Below, one piece after another: positions 1 through 9,643 of a stretch of DNA of 64,000 bases. Within the stretch, counting starts at the first letter, position 1. The number at the start of each line of letters is the position of its first letter. A model generated the notes under the pieces. It was given only the letters and a program-made list of their open reading frames with translations, ran no database searches and was not told where the DNA came from. The DNA is taken from assembly GCA_020881915.1 (NCBI GenBank), contig JAJFPB010000002.1, positions 124,001-188,000 on the forward strand, given 5' to 3'. The stretch comes from Paramyrothecium sp. XJ0827 (taxonomy: Eukaryota > Ascomycota > Sordariomycetes > Hypocreales > Stachybotryaceae). A program made the translations under genes and the position numbers.

Positions 1-3000
1 CCAAGGCCACCTTGATATGCATTCGTTGAATCGAGAAGTCGGGCGCGCCCGTCAGCTGCCGAATCGCCTCGCCCGCCATAGCCACGTAACCAACACCCGG
101 AAGGATGACGTCGCCGAAGACCTCGTGGTCCCTGATCCATGAAACGCTTTCCAGGCGTAGAACGTTCCGCCAGCTCGGGCTGTGGTCGGTGCTCTCGATG
201 ACACGGGAACCGAGAAGCTCATGATGGGGGAATTTCCGGAACCGGAAGTCCTTCGAGAGGCGACTCTCGGCCCACAACGGCTCCTCGTAGTGCCACGGAT
301 ACAGCGGAAGGTCGGTCAGAAACTCGCCCTTGTCGACAATGGCGGCGAGATTCAGGGGGACGTGGAGGCTCCACAAGTCGCCCATGGCCCGGAGGAAGGC
401 CTCGCTCCCGTCTTGGCCGCGTGTCATGACGTTGACGTAGTCGGCTTGCGAATTGGCTGACTGGAGAATCTGCCGGAGTGGGCCGGCTAGTGTCGAGTGC
501 GGACCGACTTCGACGAACGTCTTGGTCTGCCAAGTAGATGTCGAGAGGATGTTGGCGACGGCGGTAGAAAAGCGTACGCGAGAGGTAAGATTGTCGATCC
601 AATACTGGGGTCCAAGATCCTGGGCATCGCTGATAACGTCGCCCGTGACACTGGAATGGAAAGGGACTGAAGGCGCTTTCGGCGCGATGCCTCCTCGAGC
701 CTTGAGAGAGGCCAGGTAGTGCGGTGCGGCGATGCCCATGTGGTGGGAATGGTATGCGCGATCCACCTTCAGCTGGCGGACAAGAACATCCGGGTACGCC
801 TCTTCGACTCGGCGCAAGACATTCTCAAGGACGTCCTTGTCTCCCGTGAGCGTGGTGCTTTCGGGGCTGTTCTCACACCCGACCACAACACCCTTGGCCA
901 GGTACGGTTTCACCTGCGCCGCCCCCAACCCAACCGCGGCCATGCCGCCCTGCACACCATCAACTGCAAGTGCCTTCTCCACCCACGGCATCGCCTTGCC
1001 TCGGTAGTAGGCCACGAGGATAGCCTCGCGGGCCGTCAACGCACCGCTGGCGTAAGCGCCAGCGATCTCGCCACTTGAATGGCCGACGACGGCGTCCGGT
1101 GTGAGGCCGGACTGTCGCAGCAGGTCCACCAGGGCGATCTGCAGTGCCGTGGTGCACGGCTGCGCGAGCTCAGCCTGGGACAAACGGCTTGTCTTCTTCC
1201 CTCGCAAAAGTTCCTCCCACAGCGACCAACTCGGTGCGTCGTCCTCGAGCGCTTGCAGGTGCTTGTCCAGGGCATTGATGCTCTCCCCGAAGCTCGGGTA
1301 GACCTGGATGAGCTCCTTGCCCATTTGAGCCCATTGGGCGCCCTGGCCACTGAAAACAAACACAAGCCTCTGCGGTTCGCGAGAAGGGGCAGTTCGCGTC
1401 GAAAACTTGGCAGTCCAGTCGTCCAACCCATCGGTTACGGCAAAGGCGCGGTGGTCGAAGGCGTCCCGCTTCATGGCGAGGGAGTAGCTCACGTTGCCAA
1501 GACGATTTGGGTGGGCGAGGTGATATGCCTGCTGCCTCTCAACCATCTTCTTGAGGGCATCGGGGTGCTTTGCTGAGAACAGGAGCAATGCGGGCTTCGA
1601 AGAAACCGTAGTCTTCTCGGACGCGGATTCCTCAGCCAGACCAGCTCCGAAAGAGGCCGCCGACCCAAGGACAGCATGGGCATTGGATCCACCAACACCA
1701 AAGCTGTTTATGCCAACAACAAAGTCCCGGTCTTTGGGCCAAGGCGTAGGCTCAGTTGGCACTTTGAGCTTACACGCCTCAAATGGTACTTTCAGAAACA
1801 TTAGTCTTTGCTTAAGCCACGCGGGATTCTACTAATTCAGAACGTACTGTTGGGGTTCGGGTTGTTGAAGTTGAGGTTGGCCGGGATCGTCTTGTGCTCA
1901 AGGGCAAGCGTCATTTTGACCAGACTGGACAGCCCGGAGGCGCCTTCGCCATGTCCGAGGTTGGTTTTGACCTGCCGTGGATTGTCAGTCCTCGACGCGC
2001 ACAGCCTGATAGGAAAAAGGGGCCAGGGGACTCACCGATCCTATATAGATTCCATGTTCCCCAAAGACGTTGGCAACAGCCTCAACCTCAATAGGATCGC
2101 CAACAGGGGTGCCCGTTCCGTGACACTCCATCATGGCCGTCCTCGAAAAGTCTTTTATGCCAGCCAGCTCATGACAGCGGCGAATCAGTGCCTCATGAGC
2201 GGACGCAACGGGGGCCGACATGGTCGCGGCCCTTCCACCGGCGTTGAGGCATGTAGATCGAATCACAGACCGGACTGGATCGCCGTCGCGGATGGCATCG
2301 CTCAGTTTCTTCAGATAGAGAGCTGACACGGCCTCGCCCCGGGCATAGCCGTCAGCGGCGGCGTCAAAGGTGTGGCAGTAGCCTGTCGGCGACGAAACAC
2401 CCAGCTCCTGCATTGTGGCTGTCATGCGCGGGGAAAGGATGAGATTGCAACATCCGACAACGGCGGCTTCGCACTCGCCGGCATTGATGGTAGTACATGC
2501 ATCATGGAGAGCGATCATAGAGCTGGAACACGCACTTCGAATGACGGCACTGTATAGATGATTGGTCAGTCCTCCGTTTTAGCGGTAGATGACGCGTCCG
2601 CGTCCTTGAGGCATGTCGGAAGCCATCATACCTGGGACCCATGAAGCCAAATTCATAGTGTATCCGGTTTGCCGCCATATAATCACCTGAGCCGGACTGC
2701 CGATGGCGATTGAAGTTTTCGACATCGCGCTGGTCCAACTCCAACCAGTCCCCCTCAAAACTGCCGACAAAGACGCCGATCTTGCGGCCACGTAGGTCCG
2801 ATGACCTTTGCCCGGCCGTCTGCAACGCCTCGTAGACGACCTCGAGCAGGAGTCGTTGCTGAGGGTCCATCGAAGCGCACTCGTCCTTTGTCGCCGACCA
2901 AAATGACGTATCCATGTTGGCGAGGTCGACATGGTCGAGGAAGTATCCATACTTGGAACTGACGTGGCCCGACTTTCCAGGGCCATACCAGTTGTCTACA

Positions 3001-3299
3001 TCGTAACGCGTCTTTGGTACCTTGCATCGCCCGTTCCGCTTGTTTTGGAGTAGGTCCCAGAAGGCCTGGGTATCGTTGACTGCGCCCGGGAGTCGCAGTC
3101 CCATGCCGCAAAGGGCGATGGGCTCGACCAGAGGCTTGGAAGCGCTGCCGTAATCATTGGTGGCGGCGGCGGACCCACTGGCATGACCGTTCGTGTGCTT
3201 CGATTGGCCGTTCATTGTGTGGCCGTTCGTAGTATGGCCGTTCACAGTGGGCATGGACATGGCGGGTGAGTGTCCGTTTGGCTGACTTGAAAATTCCAT
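1..3299 (-). CDS. Highly reducing type I polyketide synthase, N-terminal 1031 residues (3' end outside window)
   Basis: Builds a reduced polyketide or fatty-acyl chain. Four exons are visible: 3299-2632, 2549-2036, 1971-1848 and 1788 to the window edge; all junctions keep frame. Order: an Asn-Gly-His-rich tail (residues about 8-40); a ketosynthase with active Cys230 (ACSSS), the HGTGT histidine and the NLGHGEG histidine; an acyltransferase with GHSSG (Ser673); and the start of a dehydratase with an intact HxxxGxxxxP motif (His990). A KS at the N-terminus without a SAT domain, followed by AT and DH, is the layout of fungal highly reducing PKS. The start at 3299 is preferred over 3332 because of its better context (GCGCCATGG) and because the tail then begins like those of its relatives. 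The gene diverges from the type III PKS. MT, ER, KR, ACP and any release domain lie beyond position 1. Confidence 0.95.
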
Positions 3300-7650: not shown

Positions 7651-7890
7651 GATGGCCACGTTCGGTCGAAAGTCGGTCGCAAATCCGAGTCGGGAACAAG
7701 AGACCTTGAAACGGCTAATTACCGACTTTGCGGCCGAGAGATGGGTCGATGGCGACGGACGAGCTTGATGACAGGTTTTGTCTCTATTATCGATGCGTTG
7801 GCTCACATTTACTAAGTCTAACAATCATCACTGGCAGTAGCATGCAACGCCCAGGTTAGACTTATATTCCTGCGTATCATTACGATCACC

Positions 7891-9643
7891 ATGTCCTTGC
7901 CTTCGAAAACCTCTGTTCTTGTCGTGGGCGCCGGTCCAGCCGGGTCCTATGCCGCCTGCGTGCTTGCACGCGAGGGCGTCGACGTCGTGCTTCTCGAGGC
8001 CGACAAGTTCCCCAGGTACGTCTGATCATTACCTACCTTAAACCAAAGTGCAAACCTAAAGTTTGGAATTGAAAAGATATCACGTTGGAGAGAGCATGCT
8101 CGCAGCGATGCGGTTTCTCTTGCGGCTCATTGATCTTGACGACGAATTCGACCGACACGGCTTTGAGAAAAAGTACGGGGCCACATTCAAAATCACGGAC
8201 AAGAGGGAAGCATGTTAGTTGCCCCCGGCTTCGGCTAGTTCTTCTTGTGTCATGCCGGCACAGGCAGAGGCAGTACAAAATGACTAACCAAGGTGGAAAC
8301 ACAAATCCACAGTCACCGACTTCTCGAAAGCGCTCGGCCCAGACGGCCACTCGTGGAACGTAGTCCGCTCCGAGTCAGACGATCTCTTGTTCCGCCACGC
8401 CGCCCGCAGCGGAGCCAAGACGTTTGACGGCACCAAAGTGGACGCAATACACTTTGAGCCGTACCCGCATGACGGTTTCGAAACCGTCAAGGGTGAGAGT
8501 GAGACGGAGACGGAGCCCTCGTACCTGGCCAATCCGGGCCGGCCCGTATCGGCCGACTGGTCGTGCAAAGATGACGGGACCAAGGGCACCATCAGGTTTG
8601 ACTACCTCATCGACGCCAGCGGGCGCAACGGCATCATGGCGACAAAGTACCTCAAGAATCGCCGCTTCAACGAGGGCCTAAAGAACCTCGCCAATTGGAC
8701 GTACTGGAAGGGCGCCAAGCGCTTTAACCCTGGCCAGCACAACGAAAACTCGCCCTTCTTTGAGACGCTCGACGACGCGAGCGGCTGGGTCTGGGCCATC
8801 CCCCTGCATAACGGCACCTTGTCGGTCGGCATCGTGGCGCGCCAGGACCTCTTCTTGGCCAAGAAAAAGCAACTCGGGCTGTCCGGTGAAGAGTTCTACC
8901 GCGAGTATCTCAAGCTGGCGCCGCAGATCAGCGACATGCTATCGGACGCCGAGATAGTGTCAAACATGAGGCAGGCGTCGGACTGGTCGTATAGCGCGTC
9001 GGCCTATGCGGGCCCGCACTTTCGCATCGTCGGTGATGCGGCTGCCTTTGTCGACCCCTACTTCTCGTCGGGCGTGCACCTGGCTTTGACCAACGGGCTC
9101 GCGGCCGCCGTGTCGGTGCAGGCGTCGCGCCGCGGCCAGGCTGACGAGCGCACCGCCGCCAAATGGCACGGCACCAAAGTCTCCGAGAACTACACCCGCC
9201 TGCTCCTCATCGTCATGTCGGTGCAGCGCCAGCTACGCCTCAAGCAGGAGCAGCTCATCACCACCGACGCCGAGGACGGCTTCGACGTCGCCTTCAAGGC
9301 CATCCAGCCCGTCATTCAGGGGGTCGCCGACACGCACGAGACGGACGCGCAGGTGCAGCAGCGAGCGGTGGAATCGGTCAACTTTGCGCTTAGCTCGTTT
9401 GATGTCACGCCCAAGCAGGAGAAAGCCATGGTGAGCAAGGTCGTCCGAGCCGCGCAGGCTGGCCCCGAAACGCTCCAGAAGATGACACCCGAGGAGGTCG
9501 AGATCCTGAAGCGCATGACCCATCGCGTCTTGCATCGGAACACGACCCAAGAGAACAGGGGCCTGGCGGCTTTTACAGGTCAGGTTATTGACGGGCTGGC
9601 GGCGAACCTGGAGCGTGGCGATGTGGGCTTGACAAAAGCATAA
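7891..9643 (+). CDS. FAD-dependent halogenase (fungal phenol-halogenase type)
   Basis: Predicted to chlorinate an electron-rich aromatic ring using FADH2, oxygen and halide. Three exons, 7891-8015, 8077-8213 and 8313-9643, give 530 residues. The N-terminal GxGxxG (GAGPAG, residues 13-18) and the [11 protein letters not shown] stretch define the flavin site. The WxWxIP motif diagnostic of flavin halogenases is present (Trp246, Trp248, Ile250, Pro251), as is the [19 protein letters not shown] segment. Length and motifs match fungal enzymes acting on resorcylic and other phenols (Rdc2/RadH/AscD type) rather than tryptophan halogenases. The resorcinol expected from the type III PKS is a plausible substrate. 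Whether the substrate is free or carrier-bound is unknown. It diverges from the P450. Confidence 0.95.

Follow-up and report, generated by a model that had tools for sequence, protein, structure and literature searches.

Do the polyketide and tailoring genes at one end of a stretch of contig C8 (GenBank JAJFPB010000002.1) of the fungus Paramyrothecium sp. XJ0827 encode a single biosynthetic pathway, and if so, what would it make and how far does it reach? The stretch, referred to here as the window, comprises 64,000 nucleotides (C8:124001-188000) of a 51.8 Mb (51.77 Mb) assembly in 15 contigs; coordinates are window positions unless C8 is given. It contains genes for a highly reducing polyketide synthase (HR-PKS), a type III polyketide synthase (type III PKS), a cytochrome P450 and a flavin-dependent halogenase. 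We regard the locus as a probable scirpilin/soppiline-type hybrid polyketide cluster with built-in chlorination and an extended set of co-regulated genes, and give this reading a probability of roughly 0.7. A chlorinated alkylresorcinol appears to be the likeliest product.

The core of the cluster consists of two divergent gene pairs, HR-PKS/type III PKS and P450/halogenase, followed by the gene for a major facilitator superfamily (MFS) transporter (Table 1). The first pair has a common intergenic region of 536 bases (3300-3835) and the second pair one of 443 bases (7448-7890). Gene models for the region came from an automatic gene finder, and the core genes were spliced by hand. A preliminary description of this DNA had placed the two PKSs, the P450 and a WxWxIP halogenase next to each other in a divergent array; this arrangement was borne out, and all four genes look intact. 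Judging from the sequence comparisons, the array is not due to chance, because near full-length relatives of three of the four proteins are found in other fungi (type III PKS, 80-83% identity; HR-PKS, 80-89%; halogenase, 81-92%). Relatives were sought for these three core genes, and the P450 was compared with Pfam and PDB. Among the matches listed in the protein searches, the closest relatives of the cluster proteins come from Cytospora paraplurivora and Xylariaceae.

Only the first part of the HR-PKS gene lies inside the window; the gene extends 4.7 kb past the window start and ends at C8:119281, which places the start of the cluster ~119 kb from the start of the contig. The encoded protein has the complete domain order KS-AT-DH-cMeT-ER-KR-ACP. 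The intact KS and AT and the beginning of DH reported earlier are thus confirmed, and the full gene adds cMeT, ER, KR and ACP. Pfam matched the AT, DH, methyltransferase, ER, KR and ACP domains in an input that began after exon 3, most of the KS being encoded by exons 1 to 3. The motifs present include SACSSS, HGTGTP and KTNLGHG, which we take to mark the KS, as well as those that we likewise assign to the AT (GHSSGE), cMeT (GAGTGG) and ACP (DSL). Neither the Pfam search nor motif reading revealed a TE, CAT or R domain in the HR-PKS; counted from the beginning of the AIDSL motif in the ACP, 52 residues remain to the end of the protein.

The type III PKS contains the catalytic triad Cys163-His321-Asn354, in agreement with the preliminary description. 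Among solved structures, its closest match is 9hrb, a type III PKS from Aspergillus thesauricus (372 bits). In a tree from which relatives shorter than 330 amino acids (aa) were excluded, and in which the row OWN_C13a, a wrong open frame, is to be disregarded, the window protein falls into an eight-member clade with a support of 1.0, together with proteins from Xylariaceae FL1272 and FL0804, one from Fusarium, two from Rhypophila and two from metagenomes. It is 83% identical to the FL1272 protein and 55% identical to PspB of the soppiline cluster. Elsewhere in the genome, C13:3976887-3980252 encodes another type III PKS from this wider clade, and a third match is also located on C13.

Pairing of the two PKS genes extends well beyond this fungus. 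When 117 type III PKS rows with contig data (best 120 of 438) were compared with 120 HR-PKS rows (best 120 of 7873), 16 contigs, paired by equal size as a stand-in for the same contig, were found to carry both genes, each pair in the same organism; in six pairs the two locus tags are consecutive, e.g., ABOM_000924/000925 and EsH8_VII_000054/000055. The distance matrices of the two proteins correlate with r=0.959 over 17 pairs, including the window, and none of the 9,999 re-pairings reached this value (maximum, 0.452); the two genes co-vary. An HR-PKS gene adjacent to a type III PKS gene and an HR-PKS without a release domain, both seen here, are the features of hybrid HR-PKS/type III PKS clusters such as those for soppiline and scirpilin (PMC6985275, clades 7 and 8). 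In such clusters, FscB and PspB gave product only together with their type I PKS (PMC12559476). The preliminary description had proposed that the HR-PKS chain primes the type III enzyme, and had named a release domain in the HR-PKS as evidence to the contrary. None was found, so the priming idea is not refuted, and it draws further support from the 16 co-located pairs, the co-variation and the dependence of FscB and PspB on their type I partners.

The halogenase contains the FAD (flavin adenine dinucleotide) motif, a WxWxIP motif in the form WVWAIP and the FxxPxxSxG motif, as halogenases of the RadH/Rdc2 type do. It aligns end to end with RadH, which is also its best solved match (8gu0, 564 bits), and is 60% identical to the sulochrin halogenase GedL. 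The WxWxIP halogenase of the preliminary description is therefore intact and RadH-like, and the ring chlorination suggested there, on a phenolic ring, is well supported by the type of enzyme. Action on a free phenol is predicted from its relatives; RadH and Rdc2 have been demonstrated on phenolic substrates (PMC11026467). The protein is 92% identical to its relative in Cytospora paraplurivora and 83% identical to that in FL1272. In FL1272, the halogenase and the type III PKS (83% identity) are on contigs of equal length (61,695 bases), as are the halogenase and the HR-PKS (89% identity) in Cytospora (428,014 bases). Because these contigs match in size, the halogenase has probably long been part of clusters of this type rather than being a neighbour by chance. 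No close halogenase from FL0804 or Rhypophila is among the best 120 listed, a set in which proteins were clustered at 90%, so that absence is not implied.

The P450, labelled CYP52-like in the preliminary description, contains the heme motif FSGGPRICLG with the heme Cys. Its Pfam match and PDB search were made with an earlier 508-aa model in which one acceptor site was misplaced; P450 BM3 and its variants account for most of the top 60 solved matches of that model. The usual I-helix motif of P450s is AGx(D/E)T(T/S); here the I helix reads AAVGSE, which may point to unusual oxygen chemistry.

Table 1. Genes, transposon and promoter sites of the cluster region (aa, amino acids)
Feature	Position	Strand	Details
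HR-PKS	3299 to -4719 (C8:119281-127299)	minus	5 exons (3299-2632, 2549-2036, 1971-1848, 1788 to -3264, -3330 to -4719); 2582 aa; gene model and translation
Type III PKS	3836..5165	plus	exons 3836-3993 and 4109-5165; 404 aa; Pfam Chal_sti_synt_N and Chal_sti_synt_C
P450	5687..7447	minus	4 exons; 504 aa; corrected model
RadH/GedL-type flavin-dependent phenol halogenase	7891..9643	plus	exons 7891-8015, 8077-8213 and 8313-9643; 530 aa
MFS transporter	10497..12281	plus	2 exons; 569 aa; TRI12 match
DNA transposon	12850..15023		~2.2 kb; inverted repeats of ~34 bases at its ends; separates MFS gene from the downstream genes
Extra eEF1B-alpha (EF-1 beta) gene	18810..19942	minus	EF1_GNE match; low-coordinate end approximate, splicing partly modelled
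O-methyltransferase	20465..21898	minus	437 aa; Methyltransf_2
Second P450 (P450-2)	22894..24781	minus	N-terminal, central and heme-motif coding stretches present; unspliced model
UbiA-superfamily membrane protein	25541..26560	plus	motifs NQTTSPDED and QEFHDLEGD
Putative Zn2Cys6 transcription factor	26822..28373	minus	six-cysteine pattern; beside UbiA gene
Dyad TCGGATTACCGA	3591..3602		shared promoter of HR-PKS and type III PKS
Dyad TCGGTAATCCGA	7639..7650		shared promoter of P450 and halogenase; 12-mer of site 3591 on the opposite strand
Dyad TCGGTCATCCGA	10296..10307		MFS promoter
Three head-to-tail dyads TCGGGAATCCGA	22148..22183		250 bases upstream of O-methyltransferase ATG
Dyad TCGGTTTTCCGA	25322..25333		P450-2/UbiA promoter; 208 bases upstream of UbiA gene, 541 from P450-2 ATG
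13-mer ACGGAAATCCGAG	10265..10277		MFS promoter
13-mer ACGGAAATCCGAG	20120..20132		178 bases upstream of eEF1B-alpha ATG

The promoters bear on the extent of the cluster. Their comparison revealed one palindromic dyad, TCGGN4CCGA, in each of the three core promoters, at distances of 190-292 bases to the start codons; the convergent region 5166-5686, which served as a control, has none. The 12-mer of sites 3591 and 7639 occurs in five places in the genome, two of them here. The two divergent core promoters have six 10-mers in common (shuffle mean, 0.5; maximum, 5); no 8- to 10-mer is common to all three core promoters. In the 124 kb read in all (the window and neighbouring DNA), seven dyads were observed versus ~1.5 expected from the 641 occurrences in 51.77 Mb (Poisson P 0.001). 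All seven lie outside gene models, between genes: apart from the core sites, they are the three in tandem at the O-methyltransferase and the one between P450-2 and the UbiA gene, with no other sites in the 124 kb. The other genes in this DNA, represented by 23 models, have no dyad within 1 kb upstream. Among the first 50 of the 641 genome sites (3.0 Mb), the densest 33 kb holds three dyads. At the genome rate, the joint chance of the three core-promoter dyads is 3.8e-7, a figure that overstates the case because it was in these same promoters that the dyad was picked out; the downstream dyads are the fair test, and a moderately strong one. The pattern CGG-N4-CCG alone was rejected as a signal: with 28 occurrences in 124 kb versus 18-43 for spacings 0 to 12, it is not enriched, and rarity is confined to the longer dyad.

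Because the TCGGN4CCGA site is shared by core and downstream promoters, it suggests that one Zn2Cys6-type regulator drives the core together with the O-methyltransferase, P450-2 and UbiA genes, in a co-regulated set of ~33 kb (C8:119281-152373); both the existence of such a regulator and the outer boundary of the cluster are inferred. The putative Zn2Cys6 factor encoded beside the UbiA gene is the natural candidate for the regulator of the dyad genes. Later methylation of the product, foreseen in the preliminary description, gains support from the dyad common to the core and O-methyltransferase promoters. The same cannot be said of prenylation. The first motif of prenyltransferases is NDXXDXXXD (PMC9835599), and the UbiA protein does not contain it, the position reading NQTTSPDED. 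It fits the motifs of UbiA-type terpene cyclases (PMC9835599, PMC11745945) with one change each, S for G/A in NQTTSPDED and E for D in QEFHDLEGD, and terpene cyclases are thus the better fit; the cyclase described in PMC11745945 has NQRHPGSVAED and QDMYDQPGD. The aromatic prenyltransferase reading of this gene was lowered after the motif comparison, and prenylation of the ring, which the preliminary description had thought conceivable, now appears less likely than two other options, a partner of terpene type or a separate terpene pathway regulated together with this one.

The gene for eEF1B-alpha, located between the MFS and O-methyltransferase genes, is one of three EF1_GNE matches in the genome (on C7, on C3 and in the window on C8), which are mutually 71-78% identical over ~200 residues. 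An extra copy of a housekeeping gene, the mark looked for in a self-resistance gene, is thus present in the region; the C7 copy is found among open frames that, read by eye, resemble housekeeping genes. The 13-mer ACGGAAATCCGAG occurs in three places in the genome, two of them here, in the MFS and eEF1B-alpha promoters. There is no full dyad in 20 kb around the C3 copy or in 10 kb around the C7 copy; a shorter site, CGGNMATCCG (601 in the genome), occurs once ~7 kb from the C3 copy. These data suggest that the extra copy may belong to the regulon. Our guess, made because duplicated targets are the usual pattern in clusters, is that it could be a self-resistance gene; the open-access literature searched contained nothing on elongation-factor self-resistance. 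The C3 copy (C3:903975-904214) is at most 10 kb from open frames that, by eye, resemble a transposase and a Zn2Cys6 factor.

The proposed pathway starts from genes, intact motifs, a pairing and dyads that are read from the sequence, and from these we infer the chemical steps and their order. The HR-PKS would build a reduced, perhaps C-methylated, acyl chain, which, because this enzyme has no release domain, is expected by analogy with its relatives to be handed to the type III PKS. The latter would add malonyl units and close the ring, most likely to an alkylresorcinol. As predicted from their families, the free RadH-type halogenase would chlorinate the phenolic ring, the P450 would oxidize the chain or the ring, the O-methyltransferase, if the wide cluster is right, would finish the product, and the MFS protein would export it. 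An unlikely variant has the same core, with the type III PKS closing a 4-hydroxy-2-pyrone and the halogenase acting on the pyrone or on a late phenol. The catalytic triad and the family fit either type of ring, and fungal type III PKSs can give pyrones, as several did with fed substrates; however, with C10-C20 substrates, aldol closure is preferred by all but one of the fungal enzymes described before (PMC12559476), RadH and Rdc2 were shown to act on phenols (PMC11026467), and GedL is named a sulochrin halogenase. In our judgement, a resorcinol is more likely than a pyrone.

Several observations weigh against a hybrid cluster with an extended co-regulated set. Three of the seven dyads form one tandem array and hence are not independent for the Poisson P of 0.001; only the O-methyltransferase and UbiA dyads are independent, and at least two hits in ~25 further promoters would occur by chance in ~4% of cases (a rough estimate). 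Other spacings of TCGG-Nx-CCGA are also present in the 124 kb (six with N8, four each with N6 and N11, and 0-4 for the others); the N8 dyads are scattered without a promoter pattern, three of the six being inside genes and one in a core promoter. The promoters of the putative regulator and of eEF1B-alpha contain no full dyad, and the Zn_clus match of the former scores 11.3 bits, the Pfam cut-off being 21. The transposon and ~3.8 kb without a gene model separate the MFS gene from the eEF1B-alpha gene. As for the core, the correlation of the PKS distances would also be produced by shared species history, kinship being ignored by the permutation test, and only one of the 119 halogenase rows (best 120 of 1247) matches a type III PKS contig in size and one of 119 an HR-PKS contig.

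These points bear on how much DNA the cluster occupies. It might consist of the HR-PKS, type III PKS, P450, halogenase and MFS genes only, the downstream dyads and the 13-mer at eEF1B-alpha being coincidental or belonging to another regulator of the same class. The ~4% estimate, the eEF1B-alpha promoter without a full dyad and the presence downstream of genes that could form a small cluster with a regulator of their own are in line with this; the triple tandem dyad at the O-methyltransferase, a 13-mer found three times in the genome and twice here, and the lack of other dyads in the 124 kb speak against it, and on balance we consider it doubtful. A separate cluster of the O-methyltransferase, P450-2 and UbiA genes was the initial view, dropped as the lead once the dyads were found. 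It is kept in the form of two separate pathways under one regulator, one leading to a chlorinated type III PKS product and the other, with the UbiA-type cyclase, P450-2 and O-methyltransferase, to a terpene. Intertwined clusters exist, e.g., those of fumagillin and pseurotin, and the two halves are separated by the transposon and the eEF1B gene, but dyads common to both halves fit a single pathway equally well; we see this as a real possibility that falls short of an even chance. The transposon has relatives in 83 matching places in the genome, including its own locus and some inverted-end matches, with a large share on contig C2; it was inserted between the halves, and therefore part of the distance between them is inserted DNA. 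Our boldest version, which we consider unlikely, is a single 33-kb regulon: the type III PKS product would be chlorinated and O-methylated, a UbiA-type terpene would be attached to it or made alongside it, and the eEF1B-alpha copy would confer self-resistance. If this were true, the product would hit translation elongation through eEF1B, which is not known to be the target of any natural product.

The surroundings of the cluster include three blocks with a GC content of 0.11-0.20 on the side of its start (C8 ~92-96, ~99-101 and ~107-115 kb), in which CpA/TpG have almost vanished; these look like products of strong to extreme repeat-induced point mutation. In the window, the open frame at 15370-15948 has a weak match to an endonuclease/reverse transcriptase (Exo_endo_phos_2, under the cut-off). 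Farther away are a LysM/GH18 protein (54067-55998; chitin-binding match under the cut-off) and a second LysM protein (62358-63716).

The preliminary description knew of no pathway with this full set of genes, a claim that is not supported, at least for the core. No halogenated fungal HR-PKS/type III PKS pathway was found in the open-access literature searched; however, the type III PKS locus of FL1272, a fungus with the halogenase on a contig of equal length, is in print beside scirpilin, and the DIF-1 pathway of Dictyostelium follows the same logic. The FL1272 enzyme, XylPKS, is set beside the scirpilin cluster of Fusarium scirpi in a 2025 paper, where it had little or no activity on fed substrates (PMC12559476); the open-access literature searched yielded one paper on scirpilin. 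The window resembles the scirpilin cluster (FscB; OR551244) in the pairing of a type III PKS with a type I PKS, a likeness drawn here at the level of the type III PKS, and it resembles the FL1272 locus in the clade of that enzyme and in having a halogenase on a contig equal in size to that of the type III PKS. The printed comparison and the 80-83% identity of window proteins to FL1272 and Fusarium relatives make it close to an even chance that the core produces scirpilin or a close congener, with the host alone being new. Whether scirpilin is chlorinated decides how much of the earlier novelty claim survives.

The soppiline cluster of Penicillium soppii (PspA/PspB/P450) also combines an HR-PKS, a type III PKS and a P450, and soppiline B is an alkylresorcinol whose starter comes from the reducing PKS (PMC6985275). 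It differs from the window in that, in the available part of that paper, the P450 is the only gene named beside the two PKS genes and a halogenase is not mentioned. In the literature consulted, only two fungal HR-PKS/type III PKS pathways, those of soppiline and scirpilin, are named as having a proven hand-over, and a chlorinated pathway with a defined co-regulated set would be a clean system for studying chain transfer from a separate iterative PKS to a type III PKS. In the DIF-1/CDF-1 pathway of Dictyostelium (StlB, ChlA and DmtA), type I PKS, type III PKS, flavin halogenase and O-methylation follow one another as proposed here, and StlB and ChlA have a common promoter region; in contrast to the window, the type I and type III parts form one polypeptide, the lineage is unrelated, and the available parts of the sources mention no P450 or UbiA protein (PMC9489281, PMC12767764). 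The window contains no such Steely-type fusion, its type I and type III PKSs being encoded by two separate divergent genes.

RadH/GedL-type halogenases serve non-reducing PKS pathways. The window halogenase has in common with RadH, GedL and related fungal phenol halogenases full-length similarity and the WxWxIP and FxxPxxSxG motifs, but its partner is a type III PKS. In fumagillin-type clusters, the gene for the UbiA-type terpene cyclase Fma-TC stands beside P450 and O-methyltransferase genes, and a duplicated target gene lies inside the cluster. The window is similar in having a UbiA gene next to P450 and O-methyltransferase genes and an extra housekeeping copy within, but it adds a type III PKS and a halogenase, and the duplicated gene encodes eEF1B-alpha. 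If that copy is a resistance gene, it would predict how a compound not yet seen acts, with a target in translation elongation. The core thus belongs to a known kind of cluster, and what is new, if borne out, is its co-regulated surroundings with eEF1B-alpha.

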